DNA of 64,000 bases, from positions 13,824,001 through 13,888,000 of the forward strand of contig JAVHKY010000013.1 of the NCBI GenBank assembly GCA_035079385.1, in the 5' to 3' direction. The DNA is from Aspidiotus rigidus (lineage: Eukaryota > Arthropoda > Insecta > Hemiptera > Diaspididae). Numbering within the stretch: the first letter of the stretch is position 1; the number at the start of each line of letters is the position of its first letter. The translations under genes and the position numbers were made by a program. Under the pieces are notes generated by a model. That model saw nothing but the letters and a program-made list of their open reading frames with translations, did not search any database and had not been told where the DNA came from. Positions 1,565-56,512 of this stretch are shown here, one piece after another.

Positions 1565-2482
1565 ATGACATCAGTCAAATTCTATTCATTCTTAATGCTA
1601 CTCATGGCGAGCGTTTTACTCACGTTAGTCGATGCACAGTAAGTACGCACATATCGTAATGAACATTAGAATAGAAAATAAAATCAGGAAACGTTTTGGT
1701 AAATGAATGGTGTTTTCCAGCAGGGCTTTGGCTCTTTCTTCCTTGTATCCTTCGCTATCTTGGTCACAATAGACTCAATTTTATTCTTGAACTCCTTCCA
1801 GACCATGGCCACCAGCGTATTTAAAGGAGGTTTCCGTGGTTTCTTTGGAATCCTATGACGGATCGGATTGATGTGTCTCTTCCGCCACCGTCCAAGAATA
1901 GGTGACCTGTCCCTGTCCCTATCCTGTCTATCTGGCCTTCCTCTGCTGGACCGAGTACTTGCCCTGGCTAGACCTCCCTTACACGCTTCTGTTGGCTGAC
2001 GTGCTGTGACTTAAATGAAGCTCAAATTCAGAATGTAAGCTCTAGAAACTTGAAGATCATTATAGCCACGAACCCAATTTAATGGGGACGATATCATTTC
2101 CTTCCTGCTCCCATTCGCAGTGTCTGTGCAAAAGAGGCGCTCTCTCAAACTTGGTTAATTCTTTTTTAGACTTCGGAGTTTCCGAAGAGCTATCTCACTC
2201 AGTTCTATCCAACCCTTTCCCTCAAAGTTTGTTTCTTCTATAAAATAAAATATGAATTTGAGTCTAATGAAAAAGGAACCACAAAAAAATCAAGAGGGTG
2301 CTCCTAGCATTTATTTTATCCGAAGATAAGACAGATGGAAACGTTTCAGGATTCGAATAAAATTATGATAGAAAATTGAATACAACTCTAAATAATTAAT
2401 TTTCCTTCCATCTGTTAGAGGCGCCGGTGATAATGAATACATAGGGGATTATCCTAACCCCAAAAAACAAAAAACAAGTTAG
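1565..2482 (+). CDS. Short secreted peptide, array copy A
   Basis: Two coding exons, 1565-1638 and 2419-2482, joined at CA|GTAAGT and TTAG|A, give 45 residues. Residues 1-24 form a signal peptide: MTSVKFYSF, then a hydrophobic core, then VDAQ. The predicted mature part is about 20 residues, acidic first (GDNEYIGDY), then Pro/Lys-rich (PNPKKQK), with no cysteine. The stop codon ends 1 nt before the exon 2 donor (GTAAGT at 2484). The ATG was chosen because paralogues B, D and E start at the same place, each directly after an acceptor-like ACAG. PKKQK resembles an SV40-type nuclear localisation signal but could also be a processing site. The family is not recognised. A is the most diverged copy, since B-E share KRRKLDE instead. 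Confidence 0.62.
1684..2010 (-). pseudogene. Arg/Lys-rich reading-frame fragment inside intron 1 of gene A
   Basis: An open frame of 108 codons without an early ATG runs on the reverse strand from 2010 to a TGA at 1684-1686. It is GC-richer than its surroundings and strongly basic, with an RS-like stretch (RQDRDRDRS) followed by KRHINPIRHRIPKKPRKPP and then a Lys-rich amphipathic tail (VWKEFKNKIE). The insert replaces sequence found in intron 1 of the paralogues, and its junction lies near 1713, so the last few codons read into host intron. It is probably a piece of a transposon gag/ORF1-like protein or a retro-inserted gene fragment. I cannot name the source family. Confidence 0.4.
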
Positions 2483-2628
2483 GGTAAGTAAATTGGACGT
2501 CTTCAAGCGATGAATACGTTAAAGGTGAGTTTTTGAGGCTCTTCTAAAGCGAGCGTATAACAAACTATTCACGAGTCACAGGCCGCAAAAATTTCGTCGA
2601 AAATTTCTCGGATTATACCTAATTTGAA

Positions 2629-3912: not shown

Positions 3913-4011
3913 AATAAAAAATTACTCGCTAGAAGAATTTCTATACAATGAAACAAATAACTATTTCCTTCCTTCTCTCTCTCTCTCCCTCTCTCTTCTT
4001 TGCTGTTTCAG

Positions 4012-6359: not shown

Positions 6360-6940
6360 GAAAGTACCCCCAACCAAGGGGATAGCGAGTTTCCCTCGCT
6401 AAAAATGAGGATGCCGTTGCAAGTTTTGCAACGGTGAGCGGGAAACCCGCAAGATCCGTATTCTTTGCGGAAGGTCTTTTAAAAAGTAGAACATATAGAA
6501 AATTCTATCGTATATAGCTCGAGAGTCTCCAAGTTCTTCTCCTATCATATATAGCTTGAGAGTCGAAATTTTCCCAAGTCCCCCTCCTACCATATATAGC
6601 TTAGAGGTCAAAATTATTCCAAGTTCCTCTTCCATCGTATATACCTCGAAAGTCAAAATTGTTTGACATGTTTCATGTCTTTGTCTCACTGTACCCCTCA
6701 TTTGAAAATTTGCGAGTACACCCGGGCCCCTCCCCGTGACCCTCTTATCATATACAGCTCAGAGATTGAAATGATTCTAAGTCCCCCTTTTACCATATAC
6801 AGCTCGAGAGTCAAAGTCGAAATTTTTTCAAGTCCTGCCCCCCTTCTCCGTGACGTCATCAACCTCGGAACGCTCGCGAACGAGAATTCCCTGAAAGTGC
6901 CCCCCAACAAAAGGGATAGCGGGTACCCCGCTCAAAAAAA
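6360..6940. repeat. Minisatellite of about 45 bp inside a larger repeat
   Basis: At least six degenerate units of the type ATCATATATAGCTCGAGAGT-CGAAATT-TTCCAAGTCCCCCT lie between 6490 and 6850. The tract is bounded by GGGATAGCG(A/G)G..CCC-GCT blocks at 6380 and 6910 and a GCCGTTGCAAG-TTTTGCAACGG palindrome at 6413. The same architecture recurs at 32080-32660 and, in part, at 15360-15650. Confidence 0.7.
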
Positions 6941-12471: not shown

Positions 12472-13759
12472 ACATGAATCACACCTCATATACTTACACC
12501 TCACTCATGTTCTGCACGTTCGTGTCCTCTTCCTATCCCCCCTGCATTACCCTCCCACACATACTTCGGTCATATTCACTCAACGGTCTTACTGAGTATC
12601 TCCACAAGTGTCCTTTTGAATGCATTCCTATTCAGATGGAAAATGTCCAGGTCCGGGTATTCCCCACTTATCTCATTATAGCGCTCCAAGGCCCGATTGA
12701 TGATGCTGTGTTTGAGAGCATTTGTGCGCGATGTTATGTTTTTCTCTTTGTCTTTGTATTCCTCCTGTTCTAGGTACTCGTATATGTACCTTTCCAAGGT
12801 GCCTGGCTCCTTTATTCTCCCATGTATTATGTCGCGCAGGAACATTACTGAAGTTAAGATGTGCCTTTCCTTCAATGCCAGTATCTGAAAGCCCCGCAAT
12901 AGCTCTCTATATTTCATATCCGTTGGCCAGTACTCAAACATCCTATAATATATGTACCTCAGGAATCTTTTTTGAGTCGCTTCAATCGCATCAGAAATAA
13001 TTTTTGAATTGAGATCCCATATGAGGTTCCCGAATTCCAAATTCGATCTTACTAGAGCGTAGTATAGCATATTGAGTGTCCTTATTTCTTTGAAGTGTCT
13101 AGAGTTCCTGATAATAAGCCTAGCTGTCTTTTTGCTTTTTTAATTTTTTGGAGGATGTGAGTTTTGAAATCTACGCGTTTGTTAATGATAATTCCCAGGT
13201 CTCGAACCCAATCGACCTCCTCCAAAATATCACTATTCATCATATACAAGTTGACAATCATCAATCTTATTTTTTTAGTAAAAGTTATTTTCTGGCATTT
13301 TTTAGTGTTAAAGGGTAAATGATTTTTTATACTCCATTGTATTAATGAGTCCAGATCATTTTGGAGGAGAGAACAAATCTCCTTTATTCTCTATAGTGCG
13401 AAATATTTTAAGATCGTCAGCTTACATTAATATGCTTGAATTCTTAACCCCAGATATATAATATCATTGATAAATAATAAGAAGAGGAGGGGACCAAGAT
13501 TCGATCGCTGGGGAACTCCCGAAGGACACGGAAACTTGCGCGACTCATTATTTTTATAGCTTACATATTGCCATCTTCCTGCTAAGTACGATTTTATAAA
13601 TCTCAGAGCTTCCTCAGTGAAACCCATGCACTCCAGTTTATTAATTAGGATATTATGATTCACCTTATCGAATGCTTTTTGAAAATCAGTACAGATGGCG
13701 TCCACTTGGAGTCCCTGATCGAACCTTTTCGAGAGGTACTGGACAAAACACGCAAGCTT
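12217..13759 (-). mobile_element. 5'-truncated Jockey-like LINE
   Basis: The reverse strand carries reverse-transcriptase pieces in order. 13705-13427 has TDFQKAFDKVNHNIL and the SGVPQ.S.LGPLLF.LFINDI block. The ADDLKIF catalytic box follows in a different frame at about 13400-13420, which indicates a frameshift. 13264-13082 has WVRDLGIIINK..DFK.HI. 13070-12576 has the C-terminal SNLEFGNLIWDL...ATQKRFLRYI...R.FQILALKER region. The 5' part (endonuclease and ORF1) is absent. The 3' end runs into (TG)n/(TATG)n and A/T-rich tails. Paralogous DNA at 51895-51925 lacks the element, which places both ends. Confidence 0.8.
12421..12471. repeat. (AC)n microsatellite
   Basis: About 24 uninterrupted AC dinucleotides, preceded by ACAT repeats at 12400-12415. 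It forms the 3' tail of the LINE on the reverse strand. Confidence 0.95.
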
Positions 13760-15359: not shown

Positions 15360-15655
15360 ATAATATAGTTTGAGAGTCTTAATTTTTCTCGAATCTCCAG
15401 CTATATATTATGATAGCTGGAGAGTTGAAATTGTTCCAAGTCCCTTTCATATCATATATAGCTCGAGAGTCGACATTTTTCCAAGTCCCCCCCCCCTATC
15501 ATATATAGCTCGAGAGTCGTAATTTTTTCTATGTCCCCCTCCTATCATAACAGCTCGAAAGTCGACATTTTTCCAAGTTTTTCGCTGGACGGCGGACGGC
15601 GCACGGCAAATTTCTCAAAAAGGCCCCCATGGAGCAGGTTCCCTGTTAAAAAAAG
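15360..15655. repeat. Minisatellite of about 45 bp, second locus
   Basis: Four to five units of ATATATAGCTCGAGAGTCG..TTTTTCCAAGTCCCCCCTATC, ending in GGACGGCGGACGGCGCACGG and a block also seen at 31325-31375 and 63935-63980 (GGGAACCTGTTCTATGG type, in reverse complement). Confidence 0.7.
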
Positions 15656-16591: not shown

Positions 16592-16910
16592 AAACTTATC
16601 TTTTAAGTAGGAAATTTCATTTTTGAGGCTCTTAGTTTGCAAAAAAAAACAACAAAATGAGAAATGATTTGAAATGTATCAATGCCATCATGGATGAAGG
16701 AAAATCAATGTATCACAATCTTTGATTAAAGTGACGCCGTTCATCATACTTACATTACAACTTTTCACAACTACAGACCTCTCAAAATGACCCAAAACCA
16801 TAACTATCGTCATCAGTGTGTCGTTCTATTCCTAAATTATTTCATTATTAATTTGTAAATCAATTATTAGATTTGACTGAATTGAATTAAAATTTTCTTG
16901 AATTGACAGT

Positions 16911-19444
16911 ATGGTGTCACTCAAGCTTTACACATTCTTTTTCGTACTCATGATGGCAAGCGTTTTGACTACATTTGTCATCGCACAGTAAGTACGCGCA
17001 TATTTTATTAAATTAAAATAGAAAATAAACCATGAAACGTTTTGGTAAATTAATATTTTTGGGTGTGAAATACGTATGCTCGAAAGGAATGTGATTTAAA
17101 GAGATCTACCTACAATAATATTGTCTCAATTACACGCACTGTCCGTGTACCACGTATTTCAAGTCGGGCAAAATTACGGGGCAATAACAACAAAGCGATG
17201 ATACAATTTTGTCTTAATTTGACAGTACGATTGGTCACCTCTCACCTGCTGCCAATATTCCCCGTTTACATTCTGAGGAATTTTTATGATAATGTTGATC
17301 GTGCGGCCAAGAACTCTACCCTCTTACCGAAAATTACTGACCCAGATCAGTTACCAGTATACGACCTTCAGAAATACTACCATTCCAAAATCATAGCTTA
17401 AAACTTTGGAAAGAACGGCATACAACAAACTAAGATCAATCAAAAGACTCCCTATTCCTTGGCCCTCTTCAAATAGAAACTCCCCCCACAAAAAAGTCAT
17501 CCTCTCTTGTCTTAGGATTGACCATACCCGACTCAGCGATTCTCACCTCCTCTTAAGGTGCAGTTCAGATTAGGATTCAGAGAGGTTGGAAGTAGGGGTG
17601 AGGTCACGAAAATCAAAAGTGATGTGGATGATTGAGGTGATTCATATCAATCACCTCTTTTCCTGTTTCTATTTACAATTTCTTTGTGGAAGATGCGCCC
17701 TCTCAAACTTCATCGTTTATATTCTGACTTTATAGTCTGCGAAGAGCAAGTAGGTACTTTCTTCTCTAGTATCTACATATGAGATGACTTGATTATAGTG
17801 AAGAGGTGGGTTAACCTGAGGTATTGGAGAACTACAGTAATGGTGTCAGGATTATTTTCAAGGCTTTGATGTGCCGGGGGGAGGGGGGGATGTCATTGGA
17901 AGATTAAATGACAAGCAGTTGACAATACATGAGCTGAGAATACTGATTATGACTATGAGGGTACATGGGGGGGGGGCATGATGTGTCTTGTTGGATGAGA
18001 AGGAGTGAGTGATGCTTGCGTGACCCATTTAGAGTTGAAAGAGAATAACCTCTTTGCGCTTGCAGTTTCTGATGGTTGAGGACCAGAGGAAAAGGGTTCA
18101 CTTGATTTAAAGTAATTTATCGAAGATGAGTTTTTGATAGTCTTGTTTGTGGTCTAAAACTGGCAAGTGGGTATAGTTGGTGATTCTGTGGAATATGGTG
18201 GCTTGTTTTGCGGCTCAATCTACTGCATCATTTTCTGAGAAACTGATATGACTAGTGGGATGCAGATAAATAGGTTGATAGCGTGAGGTGGATTCTATGT
18301 ACGAAAGAGGTCTGTGTTATGGAGATCTCAGAGGGAGTAAAGAGAAGAAATTGAATTGGTGAGGAGGAGGAAATTGCTGTTTGGGGAGATGTTATCAGTG
18401 AATCTAGTCCATGTGAGTATGAAGTCCCCTGTTCACCTCACACGCAAAGTAAAGTACAGCGCTTGTTGGATACGTAAGGCTAGGCAGAATGCAAGTTTGA
18501 AAGTAAGTACGCTAGCAAAAATTTATTAGGTCCAACACTTCACTGATGAGAAACCTTTTTTATCAGAAAAATTCCTTGAATGGGTTTTTGTAGACAGGGT
18601 CACAAATATCTTCACTAACACAGTTGTAGCATATCTGATGCTTGATAACACACAAACTTGTAACTTGCAATCTGCCCCAAAACTCCGGCTTTTGACAAGA
18701 TTGATAACGCAAGTTGCATGTGAATCTTATCATAAAAAACAGTCCGTGTAAGTATAAAGTCAGAATCCTCGGTTCACCTCACATGCAAGTCAATAGTCGA
18801 AATTGTTCGAAGTCCTTAAATAAGGAATACAAGAATTATAATTAGCGCTACCGTTATAGAATTTTCAATTTAATTGAGGTCCATATCGTCACTCGGGAAA
18901 AATATCCTCCGTCCCCACTGCAAGAACAATCTAGGTGTGATAGTCGTGGCAGTGATCAATTAGGGCCGCTGGTCACATCGGCGAAGGACAGTGTATGGAA
19001 ATTCTTATCGTGCTAGGTGAGAGGATGCGAGTGCAGTGAATCGTCGGAAATTCACTTTCCTCGCAATTTCTTTGTGGAAGATGCGCCCTCTTAAACTTCA
19101 TCGATTATATTCTGACTTTATAGTCTTCGAAGAGAGCGCCTACTTTCTTCTGACCAACCCCCATCAAAGTTAGTTTTCTCCATAAATTAGATTGTGAATT
19201 TGAACTCAGTGAAAAACTAATCAAAAAAATCGAGTGGGCGCAGGCAGGTATCCCTAACACTTATTTTATCTAAAGCTAAGATAGATGGAAATATAATAGG
19301 ATTCAAATGGCATTATGATGGACAATTGGAATACAACGATTGATTTCTCTCCGATTTTTCAGAATAGATGGCACAGACACGGCGCATGTTAAACGTAGAA
19401 AATTGGATGAATACGGAAGTTACGCTTCTAGGGGGGACGAGTAG
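16911..19444 (+). CDS. Short secreted peptide, array copy B
   Basis: Coding exons 16911-16987 and 19363-19444 (CA|GTAAGT donor, TTTTTCAG|A acceptor) encode 52 residues. Residues 1-25 are a signal peptide: MVSLKLYTF, a hydrophobic core rich in Phe, Val and Met, and FVIAQ. The mature part reads IDGTDTAHVKRRKLDEYGSY and then ASRGDE before TAG. It has no cysteine. The exon continues 37 nt past the stop to CTAG|GTAATT. Intron 1 (2.4 kb) is longest in this copy because it holds LINE fragments and a displaced promoter-side block (18830-19066). Exon 2 is nearly the same as in copy E, while exon 1 has the most different signal peptide after A. KRRKLDE resembles the c-Myc-type nuclear signal. Function unknown. 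Confidence 0.62.
17190..17560 (+). pseudogene. LINE remnant: RNase H end and C-terminal tail
   Basis: The forward frame reads LPIFPVYILRNFYDNVDRAA followed by KNSTLLP, an RNase H end (N..VDRAAK pattern). After a stop it continues in another frame with RSIKRLPIPWPSS and CLRIDHTRLSDSHLL, the RLRIGHTRLTH-type tail of I/Jockey LINEs. It lies in intron 1 of gene B, is truncated at both ends and carries stops. Confidence 0.6.
17790..18450 (-). pseudogene. LINE remnant, RNase H region, reverse orientation
   Basis: On the reverse strand around 18350-18170 the frame reads NSISSLYSL, then PTSHISFSENDAVD, a stop, then AAKQATIFHRIT. This matches the LINE RNase H blocks (TDS.S....L and HIG..GNE.VD.AAKQA) and is homologous to 3593-3243. 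Broken by stops. Confidence 0.5.
18830..19066 (+). repeat. Displaced pre-exon-1 block inside intron 1 of gene B
   Basis: Matches 54555-54800, which lies upstream of exon 1 in copy E (AGGTGTGATAGT, AGGGCCGC(T/G)GGTCAC, GTGCTAGGTGA, GCAGTGAA(T/C)CGTCGG). In copy B it sits after exon 1, and at 19066 it joins directly to intron 1 sequence (AATTTCTTTGTGGAAGATGC), with exon 1 missing between. It reads as a partial second gene copy that lost exon 1 by deletion. Confidence 0.6.
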
Positions 19445-19538
19445 CAAGAAATTATTCGAATATTTGTCGGGCTGTGCCTAGGTAATTAAAAAAGAAAAAA
19501 TTTACAATTTTAAGAATAGAGAGCGATTAAATTTATAG

Positions 19539-19670
19539 ACGGTTATGCGAGCCGAATTTCCCGTTAATGAAAGCGTCAAATGGGTCAGGAAGATCCTCTG
19601 TGCCAATAATCAGCCTAATCACGATATGTCCTCAGTGACTAAGCGGCTTTATAGAAACGCGAGAAAATGA
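19539..19670 (+). CDS. Exon-3-like conserved small ORF of copy B
   Basis: Follows an acceptor-like TTTATAG at 19538. The ATG at 19545 opens 41 codons containing MRAEFPVNESVKWVRKILCA, then NNQPNHDMSS and the basic end KRLYRNARK. The exon 2 stop precedes it, so it would lie in the 3' UTR of the signal-peptide message. The frame is conserved in A, C and E, and D has a 1-bp deletion near its start. It may be a separate short product, an alternative exon, or a decayed coding exon. Confidence 0.38.
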   Translation, partial: TVMRAEFPVNESVKWVRKILCANNQPNHDMSSVTKRLYRNARK

Positions 19671-20972
19671 ATCTTATTCAAAGAAATAAAGCCATCACAC
19701 GGGCAGTTACGCTATGTTACCTTGGAAACTTACAGTAAAAAAATTTGGGCTTAGAGAAAATGAAAATATGACATTTTAATTTTTCGTGGGTCCATTCCCG
19801 CGACTGCCAAAAACCAAGAATTTGTCAATCTCCTGTGATTTTGGTTTTACTTTTCTTGAAATCCTTTGATGACGGCGAGAGCCGCCAGAAATACGAAGGA
19901 TTAAGGTTAGTCAAGCCTGATCTGAATGAGTGATGAAGATTGTGCGTAATATGTCCCAACATTAGACGATGTGCTCGTGAATATTTTCGTATGCCTTATC
20001 GTGCAACAAATTATCATTGAAAACTTGAGTACGCGAATAAACGCAATGCTTATTGTAGGCTCTCTACTTGCACAATGTTTCTTTTTTTTTTCAATATTTT
20101 ATTGAAAACCAGATTTTTCATACGTATGTAACCAAATTATTTGTGAAGTCTGTTAATACGTGTCTTCATTTAACGTACTACAAATCCAAGTTTGTATTTT
20201 TTCACTTACTATGTTTCACCGATTTGAACTGAGCGACAGGGCTGCAAGAAAAAATCATTTAAACGTATTTTCAACTTAGGTCCGGGTACTATACTAAAAA
20301 CCTCAACCTCAATTTTTCCTCTCTTTTTAATAGTATTATAACGCTTAATTTCAGTGGAAATGGCCAGTGATCCTTCCGAAATTGGCCCGGCCCTCTCTAT
20401 ATCTCATTAGTGTCTGACGCTACTATATGCTAGCAATTTTGAGCTCAAAATCAAAGGCCAAATTACGTTGGAAGTTTATGAATTTTGACTTTTGAGCTAT
20501 GAATAGGAGAAAGGATAGTAAATGAAAAACATTCAAAATTTATAGTGTATCTCAAAGGAGGGGGACTTGAAGGTATTTTTAATCTCGAGATTGAAGGTGA
20601 GTGACTCGGAAAGACTTAGCCTAATAATACAGTTTATCAGAAAAGCACGGAACCTGCCCTACAGAACACAGCACTTGCAGCAGCCTAATTGCAGGATCAT
20701 ATTTCCTTATATTTTGAAGAAAAATTATTACTCGCTATACTCTGTTCACGCTAAGAATGGGCCAAAGAACGTGGAAAGTTATGTTACTTCAGAAGTAAGT
20801 ACGAAATGGTACAAACATTTTGAATTGGTTCGTCGTGGTTTGTACCATCAGTACGAAACAGTACGAACTTATACCCTTTCTTAGGTAGCCCTTTCTTAAC
20901 TTGAACAGAGTAAAGAAGAATTTTAATATTCTTTGATAACCAGTACTAATTCTCTCCTTTTTGCTATTTTAG

Positions 20973-31746: not shown

Positions 31747-32079
31747 GTAACCATATTTTTTCGTAATTCTTCTTAGTATTAGTGATTTCTGATACAGTAT
31801 TTTAAAAAGGAAGAAAATGAAAAAACAAAATTTGAAGCTTTAAAAGACAGATATTAAAATAATATGAATTCCATCTAAAATACTCGTTAAAATTAGAGAG
31901 AAAAAAATCCAACAATTTATGTTTTGTCTAGAAGTACAAATTTTGTAGTATGAAGTGCATATATTTCACGTTACAACTATATTATAAGTATGTGTAAATT
32001 GTGCAGAAAAGAATTTTATACGGAATTTTGTTTCCTTTGCACCATTCGCAAAGTTTTATTCCGCAAAGTAAAATTAAAA

Positions 32080-32660: not shown

Positions 32661-32689
32661 AGGTGAGGTTAGTTTTTTATTAGAAAAAT

Positions 32690-34980
32690 GTACCGATTCA
32701 TAAGAAAAATTTTTGCTTTTTCCACATGTAAAATATTTATTTTTGCGACGCGTTTCAAGCGCACTGCGTTCTTCAGGGGAAAAAATGGGAAACATGGAAG
32801 AAATGTTTTTTTTATTAATTTTGCGTAATGTCGCTACGATAAAATAAAATTACTTACCTAATTTATATTTTTAATGTTTCTTAACGCAATACCAAAAATC
32901 CTTTCAAGTTTAGACCTGTTCTATGAAAACTTCTTTGTCTAGCTCGGCAAAATATTTTCTGACTCAAAATAAGTTTTTTTTGTAGGAAAATAAATTTTCC
33001 AAAGGTTAGAAAAAAGAAATCAAAATCCGTTTTAGAGAATTTTTGAACAGAATAATATTTTTGGTCTAAAGAAGAAAAATCCAATAGATTTTTAGTTAGG
33101 TTTCTCGCAGCAGAGCTTCTTGTTTCAAAAAGAAACAAGTCTATACGTTTCAGTTGCATTCTCTCTTGTTTTTTCCTTTTTACTGCTACATAACTGAAAT
33201 TTGTTTTTTCATTTTTTTATTTTTTGGATCTATAGTTTTTTTTTTCTTCTACCAAAATCTAGAGCTCAAGACTTTTCTACATCAAAATATGAAAATCATC
33301 TTTTCTTCACTCAACATCAGAACTTGAGAGATTTGCTTCTTTTTGCTTGTTAAAATCCAAAATATTGAAGTACCCCTGCAAATAATCATAGGATAACTGT
33401 TCCTAGCCAAAATAATGATAAACAACTGAAGAAAATGAGATACAATTGCTCAAAAATTATTATATGTAATAATCTTCACAGTTGTAGAATACATGCCGTA
33501 GTTATATCACATTTTCAGACCTTTTTGAAGACTGTAGAAAATTTTGAAAAGTACCATGCAAAAATAAAACTCGCCAAGACTGAACAGAAATTCACAAAGT
33601 GCTATGCAACAATAAAAATAGTCCATTTGTTAAAGAAAAAGAGTGACGCGAAAAAAGAAAAACAAAAAGCACAAAATGTCTGGGAAATCAGCAATAAATC
33701 AATCAGCACAATCATCACAGATTCACAGAACAAGGAGCACAACTAGTGCCTACCTGAAGTAGAAAACCATAAAAGTTGCTCATTGTAGTTCAACAAAATC
33801 CACTTTTCTGCAAATGTTTTGTTTTTTATCTTCTCCCGGGAATCACAATCCACTTATCATCAAAAAAAATTTGGTAGGGGTCAAAAAATGATGTATTTAA
33901 CGTGTAGAATCCAAATTGCAGACAATTTCCAGTCAGGATTCCCGTTTGAAAATTACAGGTCAAAAATTTCATTCCTGAGAACTTGCCAACACTGGCTACC
34001 ATTGCCTGCGAGTGGTGTGAAAACAAACATTTTTTTGTTTTATGCTCTGCGTTACTCAGTACCGTAGTTTTGCAGCTAGTGAACCTACTACCTTTTCTAG
34101 TGTACTATTCGGACCAGTCATCCACTAGGAGCGTTACAATCGGTAAAATTTAAACGGCAGCAGGTAATTTTCCTGTATAAAAGTTCAATGAGTAATCTCA
34201 AACTAACTTGGGAATGAAACAATTTAGGAGAAAAACAAAGAGAACAAAATTTGTAGATCTTGGAAACCGTCTGCCCTTCTCCAGCACCACCCATCAATTT
34301 TCCCATTATCGAAACAGCGAACGACACCAGAAGCAACTTGTGAAATGAAACTTCCCGGAGAAATTTCTTTTTTCTCGCCCCTCTGAAGTTTTATTTGGCA
34401 TAATAAATAGGAAAAAGGAAAAATGTGCTTCTTCGCGGAAAAATTCTCTAATGAACAAACTTTGTGCATTTTCCCACAGTTCAATGCGTTCTAAACGCAC
34501 TGCGTTCTTCTTTGGGAACAAAATATTAGAAAATGTGGGCGAAGGCAAAAAAAAATTTTCGATCAGTTTCGCGTGGTAGGAACGAATTTCATAAACAGGA
34601 TCTTTTCATGTCATCGCGATAAAATCAAATTTCTTATTAAATAATTAATCGATAGTAGGTGTTTGTCAAACCTTCCTTTTTTTTCTATAATGATTTTTTT
34701 CCAAGTGGGTACTCTTGATCATATTTCAAACATTCGCGAATTTCTCGCTCATCTTACGTAAGAAAAATAAGGGATATACTTTTGCGCTATGCAATAAATT
34801 TTGTTCTGGAACTAGAGTTAGCTCCCGTCCTCAAAAAAAAAAAATCGATGAAAATATAGATAGTGGTGTGATTTGAATAATACAAGCGAGCGAAATTAGA
34901 AGAGAGATGGTATAACTCAATTCAACTTAATCGCAGCTTGTATTTTCTAATCTCTCTCCCAAAGACAATGAAGGCACAAG
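32690..34980. other. Repeat-rich spacer
   Basis: 32690-33740 aligns with 14690-15120, 35610-36600 and 53020-53950. 34030-34140 matches 37320-37440 (GCTCTGCGTTAC and AGGAGCG(T/C)TAC). The reverse ORFs at 34118-34548 overlap each other in different frames and are not conserved. No gene supported. Confidence 0.5.
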
Positions 34981-37935: not shown

Positions 37936-38826
37936 ATGATATCAGTCAAGCTTTACGCATTCTTCTGCCTACTCATAGCGAGCTTTTTGACTACATTTGT
38001 CATTGCACAGTAAGTACGCGCATATTTTATCAACATTAAAAAGGGAAAATAAAACCATGAAACATTTTGGTAAAAAATGAATATTTGTGGGTGTAAAATA
38101 CGTATGCTCGAAAGGAATGGGATTAAAAGAGATCTACCTACAACAGTAATATTGTCTCATCTGCGGTAAAAAGATGATAGCCAATTTCCAGACCGAAGGG
38201 TAAAGGCCATGTTGAGGAATTGTGTTTAATAGAGAGAGGAGGTAATCGAGAAGGCTGAGGTGGAGTTTTTTTTAGTGTGGAGGCATGGATGTCGTTAGGG
38301 CCAAGGTTGCGTGTCCAAGATTTTTGTAGAGGCCGACATGCGGTTCAGATGAGGATTTAGAGAGGTTGGAAGCAGGGGTGAGGTCAGCAAAATCAAAAGT
38401 GATAGGGATGAATGAGGTGATTCATATCAATCACCTCTTTTCCTGTTTATATTTACAATTTCTTTGTGGAAGATGCGCCCTCTCAAACTTCATCGATTAT
38501 TTTCTGACTTTATATAGTCTGCAAAGAGCGCGCCTACTTTCTTCTAACTAATCCCCATCAAAGTTGATTTTCTCCATAAATGAGATTGCGAATTTAACCT
38601 CAATGAAAAATTAACCAAAAAAATCGGGTGGGCGCCGGCAGGTACCTCTAACTTTTATTTGATCTAAAGATGAGATAGATGGGAGCATAATAAGATCTAA
38701 ATGGCATTATGATAGACAATTGGAATACAATGATTGATTTCTCTCCGATTTTTCAGAACGGACGATGAAGAACCAGGAGCTAAACGGAGAAAATTGGATG
38801 AAAGCGGAAAATACACTTCTGGTTGA
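37936..38826 (+). CDS. Short secreted peptide, array copy D
   Basis: Coding exons 37936-38009 and 38757-38826 encode 47 residues. The signal peptide reads MISVKLYAF, a hydrophobic core, then TFVIAQ. The mature part reads TDDEEPGAKRRKLDESGKYT and then SG before TGA, 3 nt ahead of the exon end (TTA|GTAAGT at 38830). It is the shortest mature form in the KRRKLDE group. PGAKRRKLD is strikingly close to the c-Myc nuclear localisation signal. The coding part is intact, but the downstream transcript is split by the 10.3 kb insertion at 39126-49458, so the last exon lies at 49521. Expression and polyadenylation may differ from its sisters. Confidence 0.62.
38170..38400 (-). pseudogene. LINE reverse-transcriptase fragment in intron 1 of gene D
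   Basis: Homologous to 55880-56110 in copy E (CCAATTTCCAGA(C/T)CGAAGG, GGAGGCATGGATGTCGTTA type, GATTTTTGTAGAGGCCGA). It is shorter than in E, and B keeps only the last part (17570-17620). Recognised as LINE through the E copy. Confidence 0.45.
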
Positions 38827-40785: not shown

Positions 40786-40960
40786 TGTCCGCTATTCCGC
40801 TTTATAACCGTATACCAAAGCATGCTCACATAGATAATAACAAGATCGTCGTCGTTTGCACTCATGGAGGTAGCGGTTATACCGAGTTGTAGGGTAAACA
40901 CGGGTTTTGGGACGAGTGGTCGATGCTAGTAAGGTGGGGACGGTAGTACCACCGTTGACA
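40786..40960 (-). repeat. Copia 3' LTR
   Basis: 175 bp, identical to the 5' LTR except for one extra C (TTATACCGAG against TTATACGAG). Confidence 0.92.
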
Positions 40961-41011
40961 CCCCCTCCCAGCGACTCGAGTCCACTTTGCTTTTTTTTTT
41001 TTTTTTTTCAT

Positions 41012-41321: not shown

Positions 41322-42437
41322 TTATTGGTTCTTTTTAGATGACCTCAGCAGACTGTCCCTGCAATAGACAAAGGGCTGTTGCGGGAGCGGCTTTGTTAAA
41401 ATATCGGCCAGCTGTTTGTCTGTGCCAACTTGTTCAATTCTCATCAAGTTCTCAGAAATATATTCTCTTATCTTAAGGTATCTTATTTCCATATGTTTGA
41501 CTTTTCCTTTCCCAACTCTTGTTGAGGCTTGTTGCAATGCTGCAAAGTTGTCTTCATAAAGAGTAGCAGGAAAAGTGTTAATCTTCAGAGTTTCTTTCGT
41601 CAGGTATCCTAAATATAATACTTCTTGGGCAGCCTCATTGAGAGCAATGAGTTCAGCCTCGCTTGTATGTGATGCTATACTCCTTTGGAGGCGGGAGCAC
41701 CAAGTCACAGGAGTCTCAAATAGTCGCACTACAAATCCTGAGGTAGATCTGCGAGTAACGTCTCCTGCATGGTCCGCATCAACATAGGCATCAAGTATAC
41801 CTGGCAGACATGCTTCTTCATTAGGAAAGATATTATCCAGTTTAGGACACATGATTCCATAGTGAGGAGTTAGGGATAAATAGTGAAGAACACGCTGGGC
41901 AAGTGTCCAATGGAGTGCTGTTGGTTGAGTTTGGAATCGTGCTAAATAATGTATTGAAAAACTAAGATCAGGTCTAGTATAGTTTGCAAGAAAAATTAAG
42001 GCACCAATAACTTGGCGGTATGGGAAAGATTCTTGGTTAAGTAGGGCTATTTTCTTATGATCAGAAAGTTGTGGCATTGGGTTAGAAGACCACATTGAAA
42101 CGTGCAAATTTGAGTTGTTAGCAATATAGTATTGGTTAACAACCGCTTTTGCATAGGACTTTTGATGAAGAAAAAGCTGATTCTCATGTTTCTCAATTTC
42201 AATCCCAACAAAGGTTTTTGGAAAACCTAAGTCTTTTATCTCATATCGCTGTGATAAAGCTTCAAGTGTTTGATTCATACCAACCTTATCATTACCAGTT
42301 AGCATGAAATCATCAACAAATGTGAGTATGATCGTAATGAGACCTGTATCCCACTTTGTGTACATACAAGGTTCTCGATTGGATTTCGAGTGAAGTTGAG
42401 TGATTTTAGGAAAGAATCTATTTCTCGATTGAAGCAA
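41322..42437 (-). pseudogene. Copia pol: reverse transcriptase end and RNase H
   Basis: Reads TFVDDFMLTGNDK (the catalytic VDD box), then the YRQVIGALIFLANYTRPDLS and HWTLAQRVLHYL blocks, and ends with RNase H (YVDADHAGD, SEAELIALNEAAQE, LYEDNFAA, HMEIRYLKIRE, LADILTKPL). The stop is at 41322. The upstream part lies in another frame, with the break near 42385-42400, so this copy cannot make one continuous polyprotein unless the break is a sequencing error. Confidence 0.85.
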
Positions 42438-43372
42438 ATAGGTGCTATATCAAGCCCATATAAAGCCTTATTGAGCTTGCATGCAAATTTCTTTGAGTCT
42501 GAATCAATTCCCTGGGGAATTGAAACGTATTTCTCTCGATCAATTTTCCCATTTAGGAAGGCATTATCAAAATCAATCTGTTTCATATCCCAACCAAATT
42601 TTGACGCTACCACAAACATCCATCTTATTGAAGTTGCTGAAGGTGTGGGTGAGGCTGTCTCAAGTTTTGAGGCTTTATCCTTATCTCTACACCCTATAGC
42701 TACTAATCTCGCTTTATAAGTTCCATTTGATTTGATAGAAAATATCCATTTCAACGGAATCACCTGTTTCCCTTTAGGTCTAGGGACAATGTCCCAGACT
42801 TTGTATCTTGCCATCGCATCCATTTCTTTCTTTATGGCCAGTAGCCATTTTTCTGCATCGGGACCATTAACTGCCTGCTTATAGGTAAGTTTTTGGTCCT
42901 GATGAGCTGTGAATATATTTTTATCAAATTCACCAAAATGATCATATCTCATCTTCAGCATATTGATACGGATATCATTTGCATCATCATCCCAGTCATA
43001 CTCAATTTCTTCTTCTATTTCTTGAACAGGCTCCTCTACGGTAGAGTCACCTTGTTCATCATTTAAGACGTCACAATGTGACTCTTCGCCCCCTCCATTT
43101 GAGGAAAGGTTCTCTATAGGAATAGAATTGGAACATGTACAGGGAGTGGATGTTCTTTCAAGATCAGAAAATAGATTTTTAAGAAGTTCAAGGTTTTCTT
43201 TGGATGGAAAATCATCTTTGAAAAGACAATTTTCATTTATCGACACATTGCAAACCTCATCAATTTTCTTAGTTTTGGGATCAAAAACTCTGTAACCTGT
43301 GTTAGTGAATCCCACTAAATAACAAGGATTTGATCGCTTCACAAATTTTTCTACCAGATGGTACAGTCTCAT
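42299..43372 (-). pseudogene. Copia pol: integrase end and first half of reverse transcriptase
   Basis: Contains the post-integrase acidic linker and then the classical Copia RT entry, NGPDAEKWLLAIKKEMDA, VWDIVPRPKGKQVIPLKW, KARLVAIGCRD and QIDFDNAFLNGKI. It ends after SLNFTRN, where the frame changes. The upstream break, near 43345-43360, falls in an A5 homopolymer. Confidence 0.85.
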
Positions 43373-44675
43373 CTAACACATTAACCAGTGAGCCAAATAT
43401 TCTTATTTGACTAACATCAGGTTTCTTATTAAAGAATTTCTCATATGGAGTCCTAAAGTTCAAAGCTGAATGGGGTGTTCTATTATATAACCAACAAGCA
43501 GTTTCAATAGCTATACCCCACATGTTCTCTGGTATTCCTGATTGTATCAGGAGTGCTCTCCCTCGTTGAGTCAACGTTTCTTGAACCCTCTCTACCAGAC
43601 CGTTATGCTGATGGCAATACGGCTCTGCAGGGTCTGTCTTCACATCATATTTATCTAGAATTTCGGAAGTTGCATAGGATAAAAATTCGGGAGCATTGTC
43701 ACATCGCAGGAGATTGAATTGACCAGGTGTTGGATATTTTGCTCGAAGATACCGATAGGCTTCATTCAAATAAGTGGGGATCTCACTTCTTGACTTCATA
43801 GGGAAAACCTGTAGGAATCGGGAATAGTCATCAATCACAGAATGTATATAACGATTCTTATCAGGGTATGTTACTGGAGTGATTGGACCTACTACATCAG
43901 TATGTACCACTTCACCCACTCTCGTTGCTCTTTCTCTATCTTTTTGAAATGATTTTCGTTTCATTTTTGCACAAGCGCATTCATTACAATTTGCAATTGA
44001 GGCAGTAGGGATCAGATCTCCAATGCCGTCAGCTGCATATCTCAGATGACTCAGATAGTTGGCAGAAATATGGCCCATACAACGATGCCATAAATTGCCT
44101 TCATTCTTAAGAAGTTGGATTTTCTCAGGTGATAATTTTCGCTTAAGTTTTCGTTGATTATTACGACGAATAACTTTTAGACAATTAATTATCTCTTTAT
44201 TTTTCTTGACAGATTCAGAATGAGATTTAGGATTACAAGTAGAAAAAGAAGTTATTTTCTTATCATCAATATAGGCGTCAATACGATAAAGATTCTTTTC
44301 TGTTTTGAGGAGAGCGAGTTCTCGATTCAGAGTCCTGGAATAAATACAACCAGAATTTATATCAAGGAGAAAGAATGTTTCAAATTGTACATTAAATTTG
44401 TGACAGCTTAGAACAAAATCTGAGATTTCAGGAACGTGTTGGACATCAAGAATAGTAATAGGAGTATATTCATTTTCAAATTTAAGGAGCAGAGGTAACT
44501 CACCACCACCAATAGAAAAACATTCAATACTAGAGAGAGCTGTTTTCACTGGTTTAGGTGTCTTAAATCTCTTATAATTGACTAAGAGTTCACAGTCATA
44601 TACTATATGATGTGACGCAGCAGAGTCAGTTAGTAGTGATATGGTTCTCTTAAAATTCTCATGAATGTTACACAA
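43302..44675 (-). pseudogene. Copia pol: protease and integrase
   Basis: Aspartic protease motif LLTDSAASHHI, then the integrase zinc-binding HHCC (HRCMGHIS...CNECACAK) and catalytic core with HTDVVGP, RCDNAPEFL and GLVERVQ providing the D, D and E residues. It also has the NMWGIAIETACWLYNRTPH block usual for Copia. The frame is lost just after VLDETVPSGRK. Confidence 0.9.
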
Positions 44676-44728
44676 ATTCTCATTTGTACCTGATTTCTTT
44701 GTCCCTTTTAATTTAGGGCAATCTTTTG

Positions 44729-46021
44729 CTATATATGACCGTACTGTTTACATCCCGGATTATAGCACAATCTTCCCGGGCGGTTACATTCCTCCGCCGT
44801 GTGAAAAAATTCACCACAGATGCGGCACAGAATTTTTGCCTTCTCTTCTTCCGACATTGATCGCAGTTTTGCACGTTGCTCCGCGGTATAGATACCGCCA
44901 AGAGTCTGTGCACCTCTCTTCTCATTCGTTCGTTGCTTCTTCCGAGAGTCGGTTTCAGCGAACGAATCTTTCTCTTTATCATTAAACTTTCGTTTTTCGC
45001 CTGTACAAATTAACATTGAATTAAAACTGATGTAATCATTATTATCCATAAAAAAATTTTCATGCTGGGGATTCAAGTTTGATTTAGTTATTTCAACACA
45101 TTCTCGATTATTTTTCTCATTCATTACAACTGAATTTTCAAAAATATTCTTACTATCATTATCGTTACCTGTTTTTACAGACGTATTCTTTCGTACTGAT
45201 TCGTGATCTAGCTGGAGAAAATTTGCCTTTATTTCTTCAAATGATTTCATCTCCGCAGATGACGTAATATTGTTGTAAAAAGACGCATACAAAGTACCAG
45301 GTTCATTAATTTGCTGTATCTTCTGGAGAAAAGTCGCAGCCAAAAACTCATCACAGAAGTTTGTGTTGACTAACAGGAAATCCTCTACGCAGTTGTCAAA
45401 ATCGGCAACAAATCTCGCTGCATCATATCCAATCTGGAACCTTAACTTCGTAAATCGACTGTTGAGTTCGACGTAATCACGCATCCGTGTTTTAGTATAC
45501 ATTTTCTCGAGTTGAGCGATTGCTGCAAACGGTGTTTTTGCCTTTTGTATTTGTAATTCAATACTTCTTGACACCGACGCTTGAATACACTGCATCGTCC
45601 GTGCATTCAAAAGAGACCGATATGATGGTGATATATTTACACCTTCCACACCATTTTCAGATTCGATAAATGGCATCAACATATTTGCTTCCAAATGGAG
45701 TTCGAGTTTTCCTCTCCATCTGCGATAATTTCGATAACCTTTCAGTTTCTCTTTTTCGTCGAACACAGGCACAGCGAAGGATGGTGTGCGGTAGTTTCTA
45801 TCCAGTTCCGCCATCCGTTTTTCCTCTGGATTATTCGTATTATTCGGTAATGCATCGACGGTAATTCCCGGTATTTGAATCGCTCCCGTTTTCATGAGAT
45901 TTATGAAAGATGCTAATACCGCTGCATTCTGATCGACTTGAGAATTAGTTGACGTACCGGCTGTATCATTCGACGTTGACGAATTTTCAGCGTCGCTGTC
46001 CGTGGTTCGCGTTCTCACCAT
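44729..46021 (-). pseudogene. Copia gag
   Basis: 430 codons starting MVRTRTTDSD. A capsid-type helical region follows (GYRNYRRWRGKLELHLEANM, FAAIAQLEKMY, LNSRFTKLRF), then a Lys/Arg-rich stretch and a canonical zinc knuckle CRICGEFFHTAEEC. A second Cys/His box (CYNPGCKQYGH) is cut by a frameshift at a TATATA run near 44742. The remainder (AKDCPKLKG) continues in another frame toward the protease. Confidence 0.88.
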
Positions 46022-46107
46022 TCTAACTGAATAATTGGGTGGTTTTCAAAACAACAAAATAACTTATCTTAAAAATCGTAAAAAAAAAATTTGCATTAAT
46101 GCATTAA

Positions 46108-46281
46108 TGTCCGCTATTCCGCTTTATAACCGTATACCAAAGCATGCTCACATAGATAATAACAAGATCGTCGTCGTTTGCACTCATGGAGGTAGCGGTT
46201 ATACGAGTTGTAGGGTAAACACGGGTTTTGGGACGAGTGGTCGATGCTAGTAAGGTGGGGACGGTAGTACCACCGTTGACA
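46108..46281 (-). repeat. Copia 5' LTR
   Basis: 174 bp; the TG..CA ends and flanking CTGAT confirm the boundary. Confidence 0.92.
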
Positions 46282-46399
46282 CTGATGAATGATCAAAACG
46301 TTCCCATACCTAGTAATTTTATGCTTCGACCATATACTGAATTGATATGCCGTTGGCTGGAACATCGCTATTATCGACAGATATGATGTAGCTGGAAAA

Positions 46400-46859
46400 C
46401 ACGGTATAAGATGAAGAGGTAATGACACAACGCTAAAATCGTGTCCGCAGTTTTGAAGTTGTACGTACAAACTTCCGCTAGGTTTGCAGCGAACACTCGG
46501 GCTGTTTCCCTGTTCCTTCTACACCCCACCTGCGCCGAGACGTTACCGTTGGTACCCTAGTATTGATGAAATTTCGAAGGATTATAAAAAATCCAAGAAT
46601 TTACTTAGAAGGGTGATTCTTTCAAAATTTTATAGAGTAGATTAAATGGTATTTTTATGCCAAATACGAAATGCATCGGCTGATTCCTGATCCTGCAATA
46701 AATTTTTGAAAGTAGCGGCGTTCCCATAAGACTCTGTACATTACCCATCACTTTCATCACGAGCGCTGCGCTCGGGATGTTCAGAACTACTTCAAAATCA
46801 CGGACAGCGTACCACAGTCAGAATACGTTCGTGTCACTACCTCTTCATCTTATACCGTG
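46400..46859. mobile_element. hAT-type MITE, 460 bp, first of an inverted pair
   Basis: The exact 8-bp duplication CTGGAAAA lies at 46392-46399 and 46860-46867. Terminal inverted repeats are CACGGTATAAGATGAAGAGG. No transposase. Confidence 0.9.
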
Positions 46860-47020
46860 CTGGAAAATAGGCCTATTTAAAATACACGCGTCACACCTTT
46901 CCCCACTGCGCCAACAAGTTCAATGCCGCTGGCGCTTACAATCGCCGTAAGCGTAACACTCTGATGTTGAGCGGGCCGTATTTTTTACCACTTAGCGCAG
47001 TCCATATACAATATGTATAG

Positions 47021-47482
47021 CACGGTATAAGATGAAGAGGTAGTGACACGAACGTATTCTGACTGTGGTAAACGCTGTCCGTGATTTTGAAGTAGTTCTG
47101 AACATTCCGAGCGCAGCGCTCGTGATGAAAGTGATGGGTAATGTACAGAGTCTTATGGGAACGCCGCTACTTTCAAAAATTTATTGCAGGATCAGGAATC
47201 AGCCGATGCATTTCATATTTGGCATAAAAATACCATTTAATCTACTCTATAAAATTTCGAAAGAATCACCCTTCTAAGTAAATTCTTGGATTTTTTATAA
47301 TCCTTGGAAATTTCATCAATACTAGGGTACCAACGGTAACGTCTCGGCGCAGGTGGGGTGTAGAAGGAACAGGGAAACAGCCCGAGTGTTCGCTGCAAAC
47401 CTAGCGGAAGTTTGTACGTACAACTTCAAAACTGCGGACACGATTTTAGCGTTGTGTCATTACCTCTTCATCTTATACCGTG
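47021..47482. mobile_element. hAT-type MITE, 462 bp, second of the pair, opposite orientation
   Basis: Nearly identical reverse complement of 46400-46859 with its own 8-bp duplication ATGTATAG (47013-47020 and 47483-47490), so it arrived by an independent insertion. The short ORF at 47065-47277 is not conserved and is not called. Confidence 0.9.
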
Positions 47483-52686: not shown

Positions 52687-55077
52687 GTGACTATATTTTT
52701 TTATAATTCTTATTAGTATTAGGGATTTTTGATATTTAGTATTTTAAAAAAAGAAGAAAAAAAAATTTGAAGCTTCAAAAAACAAATATCAAAATAATAT
52801 CAAAATTTCAACTAAAAAGCTTGTCCAAATTAGAGAGAAAAAAATCTAACAATTTATGTTTTGTCAAGAAGTACAAATTTTGTAGTATGAAAGTAATATG
52901 AGTAAGTATTTCAAGTTGCAAATGTATTATAATATGCAAATGGTGCAAAAGAGAATTTTATGAGAATTTTGTTTTTAGAATGTTTTATTCCGTAAATTAA
53001 ATAAAAGAAAAGGTGGGTTTGGTTTTTTCTTGGAAAATAGTACTTACCAATTGATTAAAAAAAAACTTTTTGTCTTTGTCCACGTTGAAGATGTTTATTT
53101 TTGCGGCACGCTTCAAACGCACTGCGTTCTTCAGGGGAAAAAATTGGAAATATGGAAGGAAAGTTTTCTTTGTTAATTTTATGTAATGTGGCTACGATAA
53201 GATAAAATGAGTTATCTAGTTTATATTATTCAATGTTTCTTAACTCAATACCAAAAATGCTTTTTTGTGTGGATTCGTTCTAACAAAACGTCTTAGTTTA
53301 CCTCAACAAAACATTTTCTAACTCAAAATAAGTTAATTTACTCACCATTTTTTCGTAGGAAAATAAATTTTCCAAACTTTAGAGAAAAGAAATAAAAATT
53401 TATTTTTGAACATTTTTGAACAGAATAATATTTTTTGTGGAAAAGTGAAGGTCTAAAGAAGAAAAATTCAATTGATTTTTAGTAAGATTTCTCAAAGCAC
53501 TTCAGTTGCTAGGTCTCTTATTTTTTCTCTTGTTATTTTTTTTCATTTTTTTTAAAGATCAAATTTTTTTCTTTTCTACCAAGATCTAGATCTCACAAAA
53601 TACAGATCTTTTCTACATTAAAATATAAAAACCAAGAGATCCACATCTTTTTTACACTCAGGTCTAAAATCTGAGAAATTTGATTCTTTTTTGCTTGTCA
53701 AAATCTAAAATGTAGTACTTCTGCAAATAATCATCGGATAAGAGTTTTCCCATCCAAAATAATGATAGACAACTGGAGAAAATGAGATACAGTTGATCAA
53801 AACGTATAATAATACTCAATCTTCACAGTTGTGGAGTACATGCCGCACCTTTTCAGACCTTTCTGAAGACTGTAGAAAAATTTGAAAAATACCATGCAAA
53901 ATAAAACTTGCAGAAATTTTCAAAATGCTATGTAAAAATAAAAAATTCTTATACTTACCTAGTCAATTTGCTAAAAAAGGAAGTGACGTTACAACCTAGT
54001 GGGGCAACTTTTCTCGCATTGTAAAATACCAAAAAGTCTAATTTATGTTGTGACGTCACTCCTGTTTTTCCTGTGAATGGACTAAGTGATACAGAATATT
54101 ATCTCGAGTTGTGACGTCACAACTAACAAAGTTTTTAAAAATTATTTAAGTGGAGCTTTTTTTTTGTCATATTGTGATCTACGTGCTTGGTAGCGCTGCT
54201 GGCGGTCACATATGCATACAGCTAACAACACATAAGAGGAGGGATCTCGAGAGCAGGTAAAACGTACATCCATTTTAGTTTGTAACTTACTGACAGCAGA
54301 CAGCTTCGTTATGGGATAAAAGCGCAGGTCTGCCGGACATGCATCTTGTTTTCCAATGTTGACCGCCAAAGGGGTGCAAAACTCATTTTACAACCAAAAT
54401 GGTTGTCCATTTTATCTGCTCTTAAGTTCCTTATGTTCTTAACAAGAGTTGTCGTTAGCTTGTTTCCTGCATTACTCAAATTCATACAGGTAAATGGAAG
54501 AATCTACTTTATTTTTAAACGTAAGTATTTTGTTCAAAGCCGATAAATAAGAAATACAAGAATTATAGTTGGCGTTATTGTCATCGAGTTTTCAATTTAA
54601 TTGAGATCCATGTTGTCAGTCCGGAAAAATATCCGCCGTCCGCACTGCACACACATTCTAGGTGTGATAGTTGTAGCAAGAATCAACTAGGGCCGCGGGT
54701 CACTTTGCCAAAGGACAATGTATGTAAATTCTAATCGTGCTAGGTGACCTCGCATATAAATGCAGTGAACCGTCGGAAAATTCACTTTCCTCGCCCATCA
54801 TAAAGAAAAAATGGAGTCGTACATTTGCCTCTCTTGAACTGGACCATCAGGGCCAAAATTATTTTCTTGTCGCGGGTTCAAAACGGGAGAGAAACTCTTG
54901 AAATGTAGAACCGGCATAGGGACCTCTCAAATTGACCAAAAACTATCAACTATCGTCATCAGTGCAGTGTGTCGTTCTATTTTTAAATTAGTTGATTATT
55001 ATTATTATTATTATTATTATTGTAAATTAATTATTAAATAGAACTGAATTGAATTTAGATTGTCTTGATTTGACAGT
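52687..55077 (+). other. Intron 0 of gene E
   Basis: 52690-53950 is the intron 0 repeat. 54051 and 54112 carry exact TGACGTCA palindromes. 54190-54480 matches 25600-25740. 54555-54950 is the best-preserved pre-exon-1 block, followed by CAGTGTGTCGTTCTATT and an ATT microsatellite at about 54989-55020. Confidence 0.5.
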
Positions 55078-56512
55078 ATGGTATCAGTCAAGCTTTATGC
55101 ATTCTTCTTCCTGCTCATAGCGAGCTTTTTGACTACAAGTGTCATCGCACAGTAAGTACGCGCATAATTATATTATTAACATTAAAGTAGAAAATAAAAC
55201 CATGAAACATTTTAGTAAATGAATATTTCTGGGTGTGAAATACGTATGCTCGAAAGGAATGGGATTGAAAAAACTGCACAGGCCAAGGTGAAACCAATGT
55301 ACTTCGCAGAGGATTGAATGGTAATCGTTAAGTATTGTAGATGCAGAAAAGGGAGGGGCGTAGGGTGTGGGTATCTTTTTTGTAACCTTACCATGACTAA
55401 AAATAAAAATAAGATGTGCCGCAAACCATGACTGTTCTCTTGGCCGAAAATTGAAGTCCATGGTGAGATGACCATTAAGAGATTTTTTTCTAGGATTAAT
55501 TGCAATAGTCTTGCTGCTCGGGATTAGAAGGGAGATGCCTAAAGTCATCCGCAAAAAGTGGTTTGAAACTCTTCTTTAGGTCATTTATAGCAGAGGAACA
55601 TTTCATACTTCTCCTTGGGAGATACCGTTTTTGATGGTTTATCAGTCTCGAATTTTAAACGTTAAAGGCCTTTCGTAAAAAAAAGGATTGGAAGAGTTTG
55701 GGTGAATTGCCTCATTATAAAATTTGAAGATGTAGCGACCCCAGACAAGGGGAAACACTTCAAAGAGATAGAAGAAAAAAGATAGTATTTACTCAAAGTA
55801 GTCGTTAGTTGAATATCTTTTTGAACAGTTCGCCAAGGACAGAAATCAGGGCGATAAGTTGGTAAGATGCCAGCCGAGAGGAATCTCCAGTAAAAGGATG
55901 ATGACTAATTTCCAGATCGAAGGATAAAGGCTGTGTTGAAGAATGGTCTTCAATAAGGAGAGGAGGTAATCGAAAGAGTTGAAGTGGAGATTTTTTAGCA
56001 TGGAGGCGTGGATGTCGTTAATACCAGAGGCTGCGTGTCCAAGATTTTTGTGGAGGCCGATATGCAGTTCAGATGAGGATTTGAAGAGGTTGTGAGCAGA
56101 GGTCGGGTCAGCGAAATCAAAAGTGATGTGAATGATAGAGGTGATTCATATCAATCACATCTTTTCCTGTTTCTATTTACAATTTCTTTGCGGAAAATGA
56201 GCCCTCTTAAACATCGTAGATTATTTTCTGACTTTATAGTCTGGGAAGAGCTCACCTACTTTCTTCTAATCAACCCCCATCAAAGTTAGTTTTCTCAATA
56301 AATTAGATTGTGAATTTAAACTCTATGAAAAATTAACCAAAAAAATCGAGTGGGCGCAGGCAGATACTCCTAATACTTATTTATGATAGACCATTGGGAT
56401 ACAACGATTGATTTCTCTCCGATTTTTCAGAACGGATGGAGCAGACACGGCACATGTTAAACGTAGAAAATTGGATGAACTCGGAAGTTACGCTTCTAGG
56501 GGGGACCAGTAG
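55078..56512 (+). CDS. Short secreted peptide, array copy E
   Basis: Coding exons 55078-55151 and 56431-56512 encode 51 residues. The signal peptide reads MVSVKLYAFFFLLIASF, then TTSVIAQ. The mature part is TDGADTAHVKRRKLDELGSY, then ASRGDQ and TAG, and the exon runs 37 nt further to CTAG|GTAATT. Compared with D, exon 1 shows both synonymous (TAC/TAT, CTA/CTG, ATT/ATC) and amino-acid changes. Exon 2 differs from B at about four residues, while KRRKLDE is unchanged. All parts of the gene model (exon 0, pre-exon-1 block, exon 3 ORF, last exon) are present, so this is the best candidate for an active locus. Not recognised by family; secretion is supported, nuclear targeting is inferred. Confidence 0.65.
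55230..56110 (-). pseudogene. LINE reverse-transcriptase remnant in intron 1 of gene E
   Basis: The reverse strand carries pieces with PSSKTIAINPRK (55530-55470) and, at 55910-55800, a WKL.II..L..GW.LTNLSP.FLS-LANCSK pattern recalling the YRPISLLSVLGKLFEKI block of Jockey/I reverse transcriptases. Multiple frameshifts and deletions are present. The same insertion, shortened, lies in intron 1 of D and B, so it predates these duplications. Confidence 0.5.

Follow-up and report, generated by a model that had tools for sequence, protein, structure and literature searches.

In a 64,000-nt window of the Aspidiotus rigidus genome (contig JAVHKY010000013.1, positions 13,824,001 to 13,888,000 of the forward strand; 'the window' is this whole stretch) we find a tandem array of small genes, four with two exons (A, B, D and E) and one represented by its second exon only (C), all on one strand and within 55 kb. 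Exon 1 encodes a predicted signal peptide and exon 2 the whole mature peptide, the array has arisen by duplication, and in copies B to E a heptapeptide, KRRKLDE, stands unchanged beside a variable remainder. On this anatomy we regard the array as a real gene family, whose products are likely secreted. Tentatively, we favour the explanation that the peptide is secreted and pressed by a changing partner outside, and that it keeps a docking motif, which is maybe a nuclear import signal. The array illustrates on a small scale how a gene for a secreted peptide evolves: the signal exon is retained, the mature exon is let loose, and a single heptapeptide persists in four of the five copies.

A tandem array of two-exon genes for predicted secreted peptides

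Genes were read from the ATG to the donor (exon 1) and from the acceptor to the first stop (exon 2):

1565-1638, plus strand: copy A exon 1, 24 codons for the signal peptide, followed by the first 2 nt of the divided Gln codon
2419-2482, plus strand: copy A exon 2, mature peptide, KRRKLDE replaced by KKQK, stop TAG
16911-16987, plus strand: copy B exon 1, one extra codon, in frame
19363-19444, plus strand: copy B exon 2, probably derived from a second, fused repeat unit
27918-28005, plus strand: copy C exon 2, no exon 1, open frame with core and acceptor intact
37936-38009, plus strand: copy D exon 1
38757-38826, plus strand: copy D exon 2, includes PGAKRRKLD
55078-55151, plus strand: copy E exon 1
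56431-56512, plus strand: copy E exon 2

An original prediction, made from the letters alone, had placed four intact genes for precursors of 45-52 residues at these positions, and all four were right: the precursors have 45 (A), 52 (B), 47 (D) and 51 aa (E), with introns of 780, 2375, 747 and 1279 nt, respectively. It had also called C an exon-2 relic, and C indeed has exon 2 without exon 1, its frame still open. Exon 2 measures 64-88 nt across copies whose starts are spaced 10-17 kb apart, and length differences inside the exons of copies B to E are all multiples of three. The intron is in phase 2 in all four complete copies, splitting a Gln codon (CA|A) at a junction that coincides with the predicted signal-peptide cut, and the donor is GTAAGTAC (GTAAGT type) in all four, as had been anticipated for both phase and donor. 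The expected agreement of the acceptors extends to B, C, D and E, which have TTTTTCAG-type sites (TCTCCGATTTTTCAG common to B, D and E; TTTCCATTTTTTCAG in C), but not to A, which deviates with CCTTCCATCTGTTAG (CATCTGTTAG in its shorter form).

The proposed split design, with signal peptide and whole mature peptide on separate exons, is likewise supported, secretion being predicted. Each precursor carries Lys at position 5 and a hydrophobic segment, whose best 12 residues have a hydropathy of 2.38-2.62, and its signal ends in VIA|Q or VDA|Q (V-x-A before Gln), features that together predict a signal peptidase cut at the exon junction. The resulting chain would start with Gln and be able to form pyroglutamate. 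Mature chains have 21-29 residues over all copies and 21-27 in the four complete ones. They are hydrophilic (grand average of hydropathy, GRAVY, -1.4 to -2.0) and neutral to acidic (net charge at pH 7 of -4.2 to -0.15), and Cys is absent from A, B, D and E and occurs once in C; neither positive charge nor paired cysteines were found in the mature part of any of the five copies. Being short, hydrophilic, neutral to acidic and free of cysteine pairs, such peptides are probably unfolded alone and would act through a linear motif. The chain of D is the only one with Gly at its C end.

Some elements around the coding exons recur as well. About 100-115 nt upstream of the ATG (near 1452, 16814, 37839 and 54965), A, B and E have CAGTGTGTCGTTCTATT in common, and D has it with two changes; it is a candidate transcription-start element. 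A TTTGACAG-like stretch immediately 5' of the ATG could serve as acceptor of a 5' untranslated region (UTR) exon. Past the stop, donor-like GTAAGT occurs within 2-4 nt in A and D (2484, 38830) and GTAATT at 38 nt in B, C and E, which makes a 3' UTR intron possible.

A heptapeptide core unchanged in four of five copies

KRRKLDE is present in B, C, D and E. In the six pairs of these copies, replacement changes are absent from the core and silent ones number two (CGT/CGG and TTG/CTG); compared with the replacement rate of the remaining exon 2, this gives p 0.0002-0.018 in five pairs and 0.13 in the pair B-E. The claim that mature parts diverge more than KRRKLDE is thus borne out among copies B to E, but fails for A, in which the aligned place reads KKQKTS.

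The core resembles a known targeting signal. KRxKLD is shared by B, C, D and E with the monopartite nuclear localization signal (NLS) of c-Myc, a likeness of short linear motifs and not homology, and the nine-residue Myc signal is identical to PGAKRRKLD of copy D at seven of nine positions. KRRKLDE may be a nuclear import signal that binds importin-alpha. The rule for monopartite signals bound by importin-alpha, as given in the available part of PMC9739371, is K(K/R)X(K/R), with KRVK as the Myc core. By reading, all five copies fit this rule, A via KKQK, although the motif is loose and the fit of A was sought after that of B to E. A full-text literature search returned no match for KRRKLDE, and the signal classes sought were not found in the accessible portions of PMC4474859 and PMC6989684. 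A second short motif, RGD, lies close to the C terminus in B and E (two of five copies) and was set aside.

Rates of change in exons and surrounding DNA

Ratios of replacement to silent differences (pN/pS) were obtained by Nei-Gojobori counts. In exon 1 the ratio is 0.40-0.69 over the six pairs of A, B, D and E, a level that suits a signal peptide under constraint. In exon 2, A was omitted from the counts because its exon 2 aligns poorly, and the gap in C was placed as by MAFFT; relative to an earlier placing, this gave lower pN/pS for most pairs with C and higher p values for the core in the pairs with C.

Outside the core, exon 2 is more divergent than the final stretch of the intron (50-90 aligned nt) in all six pairs of copies B to E, significantly so in five; between B and D, for example, 21 of 49 positions differ there, vs 10 of 90 in the intron. 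It is also more divergent than the 3' flank in all six pairs. Intergenic divergence was scored by mismatches in BLAST pieces 200 nt long or longer, gene spans excluded; relative to it, the excess is about two- to threefold and significant in four of the five testable pairs (0.26-0.43 vs 0.08-0.16, the intergenic values being low estimates because BLAST clips divergent ends). The pair B-E is the exception (0.13 vs 0.12), and C-D was left out, having no piece of sufficient length.

Possible roles of the peptides

The tentatively preferred explanation would run as follows. The array would derive from a single two-exon gene, duplicated long ago into five or more copies, in which exon 1 would supply a cleavable signal peptide and exon 2 the entire mature peptide. 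Once exported, the peptide would meet a fast-changing partner, which most likely belongs to another organism or to the opposite sex, and most of the mature peptide would therefore be free, or pressed, to change. KRRKLDE would be kept in copies B to E as the docking part, its form suggesting importin-alpha binding and entry into the nuclei of target cells. That the peptide is expressed and secreted, has its target beyond the cell that makes it and enters nuclei is what we infer here from sequence. If the motif works as an NLS, the array would encode secreted peptides of very small size with nuclei as their destination; otherwise the motif still marks the part of the peptide to assay.

Several observations weigh against this explanation. 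First, pN/pS in exon 2, with only 10-14 silent sites, is 0.43-0.99 as a whole and 0.54-1.51 outside the KRRKLDE codons (six pairs of copies B to E), so that positive selection is not shown; the per-exon comparison that the original prediction proposed agrees with constraint in exon 1 but does not show positive selection in exon 2. Second, the excess of exon 2 over the 3' flank is significant in only three of six pairs (p 0.02-0.04), the others being C-D (0.07), B-E (0.11) and D-E (0.29), and the 3' flank of D is itself much changed. The part of exon 2 after the core, whose alignment is nearly gap-free, exceeds intergenic DNA significantly in three of five pairs, and in all these comparisons pairs share branches, so that their p values are not independent. 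Third, exon 2 is more divergent than the intron at its silent sites too, so that the excess is not purely one of replacements; misalignment, a higher mutation rate or homogenisation of the flanks can account for some of it. Flank homogenisation has been proposed for the SSSGP genes of the Hessian fly (in the part available of PMC2955719). Fourth, compared with the intron, the core shows no significant extra conservation (p 0.33-0.68, values that used the earlier gap placing in C, poorer than that of MAFFT), because the introns are themselves little changed. Finally, copy A has no LDE, a peptide of such small size could enter nuclei by diffusion, signal or not, and no relative from another genome came out of homology searches, which say little on insects.

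Among alternatives, an appreciable though minor chance falls to reproductive (seminal or egg-coat) peptides, secreted by accessory glands and changing fast in tandem copies through sexual conflict, with no host involved. Insects commonly have short accessory-gland peptides that evolve fast, and the anatomy and divergence pattern fit them equally, but nothing in the sequence is specific for such a role. Rather more doubtful is a sharpened form of the nuclear proposal, in which a Myc-type NLS would be the sole enduring element of secreted micro-peptides, set in an otherwise free-running chain of 21-27 residues, and the products would be minimal nuclear-entering messengers or effectors.

The main mechanistic rival to docking is cleavage. 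In prohormone-like precursors a convertase would cut at a dibasic site in KRRK (KKQK in A) and free two short signalling peptides; a dibasic pair (KR or KK) is found at the aligned place in all five copies, and the mature part starts with Gln, as many peptide hormones do. We nevertheless consider this unlikely. LDE is as unchanged as KRRK in copies B to E, and cleavage alone has no need of it; the persistence of LDE after the basic residues thus favours binding over cutting. Moreover, the freed peptides would be the variable parts, unlike in most hormones, and Gly, the usual amidation donor, stands at the end of D only.

We judge it just as improbable that the copies are decaying duplicates of a formerly functional gene, copied with its surroundings and now drifting in most or all copies. 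Drift would accommodate pN/pS near or above 1 outside the core (0.87-1.51 in four of six pairs), a core no more conserved than the intron, the lack of exon 1 in C and one upstream block without a gene. In a neutral simulation with assumed branch lengths and indel rates, the chance that both exons stay usable was 0.26-0.33 per copy at the divergence of B, D and E, which is not small, and the chance that exon 2 of C alone does so was 0.43-0.52, so that no copy from B to E is improbable singly. At the divergence of A, however, it was 0.03-0.04, and A is still open; its survival, and the joint survival of all, are improbable. The core, with silent but no replacement changes, the pN/pS of exon 1 and an exon 2 more divergent than its intron, which drift alone does not predict, also speak against decay.

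Conventional antimicrobial or venom peptides, cationic or rich in disulfides, would fit the size and tandem arrangement but are very improbable given the charge, the scarcity of Cys, the hydrophilic GRAVY values and the four precursors without a Pfam match above cut-off. The original description of tandem, fast-changing genes is supported; as to roles, the cationic antimicrobial and disulfide-rich venom classes go against the composition, and effector-like or reproductive peptides remain.

Resemblance to known systems and homology searches

The closest parallels in gene design lie in other insects. As described in the available part of PMC2955719, SSSGP-1 genes of the Hessian fly likewise form a tandem cluster with a signal region, one intron and a mature-coding region, and their introns and flanks are more alike than the mature-coding part, a contrast that the present array shows in part, significantly against the intron in five of six pairs and against the 3' flank in three. 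The SSSGP pattern of a first intron at the signal/mature boundary or in the signal region is found here in four of four complete copies. In contrast, SSSGP-1 mature-coding regions of 252-484 nt compare with 64-88 nt in our exon 2, SSSGP-1 genes lie 0.2-1 kb apart within 15 kb whereas here starts are 10-17 kb apart, dN/dS >1 is reported for SSSGP-1 and not shown here, and a heptapeptide unchanged in four of five copies is a feature of our array unlike SSSGP-1. Similarly, the KQY/KHI cassette effectors of the pea aphid (in the portion available of PMC7495047) combine a conserved signal-peptide region with divergent non-secretory coding DNA. Those genes, however, are built of many tiny exons (37 over 45.7 kb in KQY1a) at mostly scattered loci, whereas ours have two exons and lie in tandem. 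In the available parts of the literature on split signal/mature exons and on nuclear salivary peptides, no family was recognisable as the present one.

Database searches returned little. An alignment of the four precursors against 5.8 billion proteins gave nothing at E <=1 among 1705 candidates, and viral and prokaryote contigs, collections that exclude animals, gave 26 and 82 pattern matches, none of them confirmed. In Pfam at E <=1, B, D and E had one weak match each below the cut-off and A had none, and the mature part of D, the sole query against PDB, had no match. Queries of 50 residues score low, and we estimate that a relative at 50% identity would miss E 1. As a control, the copia integrase of the window drew 44 proteins from the same database, 14 with an organism name (13 plants and one rust fungus) and 30 without; with no insect protein visible even there, the homology negatives are weak. 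They matched no named family but bear little on the original remark that none is known with this sequence. Scanning the window against Rfam and for tRNAs gave no match.

History of the repeat units

The window is made of old tandem blocks, whose intergenic divergence is 0.08-0.16 among the units of B to E and 0.21-0.26 between A and the others; 'young', as the family had been described, holds only in part. Three stretches record the history of the units:

17765-19064, plus strand: additional DNA in the intron of B, the end portion of which (18803-19064) marks the probable fusion of units
26090-27826: about 1.74 kb matching no other copy, between the late-intron remnant and exon 2 of C
31457-33648, plus strand: extra copy of the block found 5' of B, D and E, with no exon 1 or 2 above the profile threshold

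Copy B probably arose when two repeat units fused. Its pieces 16776-17100 and 17559-17765 follow exon 1 and the intron of E, piece 18803-19064 matches DNA 5' of exon 1 of E, and piece 19064-19684 corresponds to the part of E that begins in the late intron and runs past exon 2, with 17676-17765 and 19064-19151 both matching one stretch of E. On the simplest reading, exons 1 and 2 of B would come from two adjacent units, each of which lost its other exon. Copy C retains its late intron (25899-26081) and exon 2, with frame, core and acceptor, and no exon 1 was found for it: a DNA profile of the exon 1 region exceeded the inclusion threshold only at A, B, D and E. The exon 2 profile matches A to E plus an intron fragment at 25951-26092. 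The block at 31457-33648 is possibly a unit that lost its gene. Exon 2 copies without an exon 1 of their own (C and the second unit of B) may be served by an upstream exon 1 via long introns, one signal exon then being joined to more than one mature exon.

Two further features of the blocks were observed. Stretches 28316-29143 and 56750-57580 are 97% identical, whereas neighbouring shared pieces are only 85% and 83% identical, a pattern as after recent conversion or duplication. A 45-nt tandem repeat occurs in the duplicated blocks at 6539-6660, 15413-15578 and 32215-32590, with copy numbers of 2.7, 3.6 and 8.3.

Other repeats in the window

A copia-type retrotransposon lies on the minus strand at 41322-46045, with gag, integrase and reverse transcriptase spread over four overlapping open frames, indicating that its polyprotein frame is broken. 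In our judgement the transposons of the window, like the style of its introns, suit an insect. It is flanked by direct repeats, 99.4% identical, which are perhaps its long terminal repeats (LTRs), and adjoined by an inverted repeat of about 460 nt (98.7%); both are among the segments 40786-40961, 46108-46282, 46400-46861 and 47019-47482. Remains of a non-LTR reverse transcriptase occupy 12576-13759 of the minus strand, with Pfam RVT_1 at 13427-13759 and similarity by eye only at 12576-13139.

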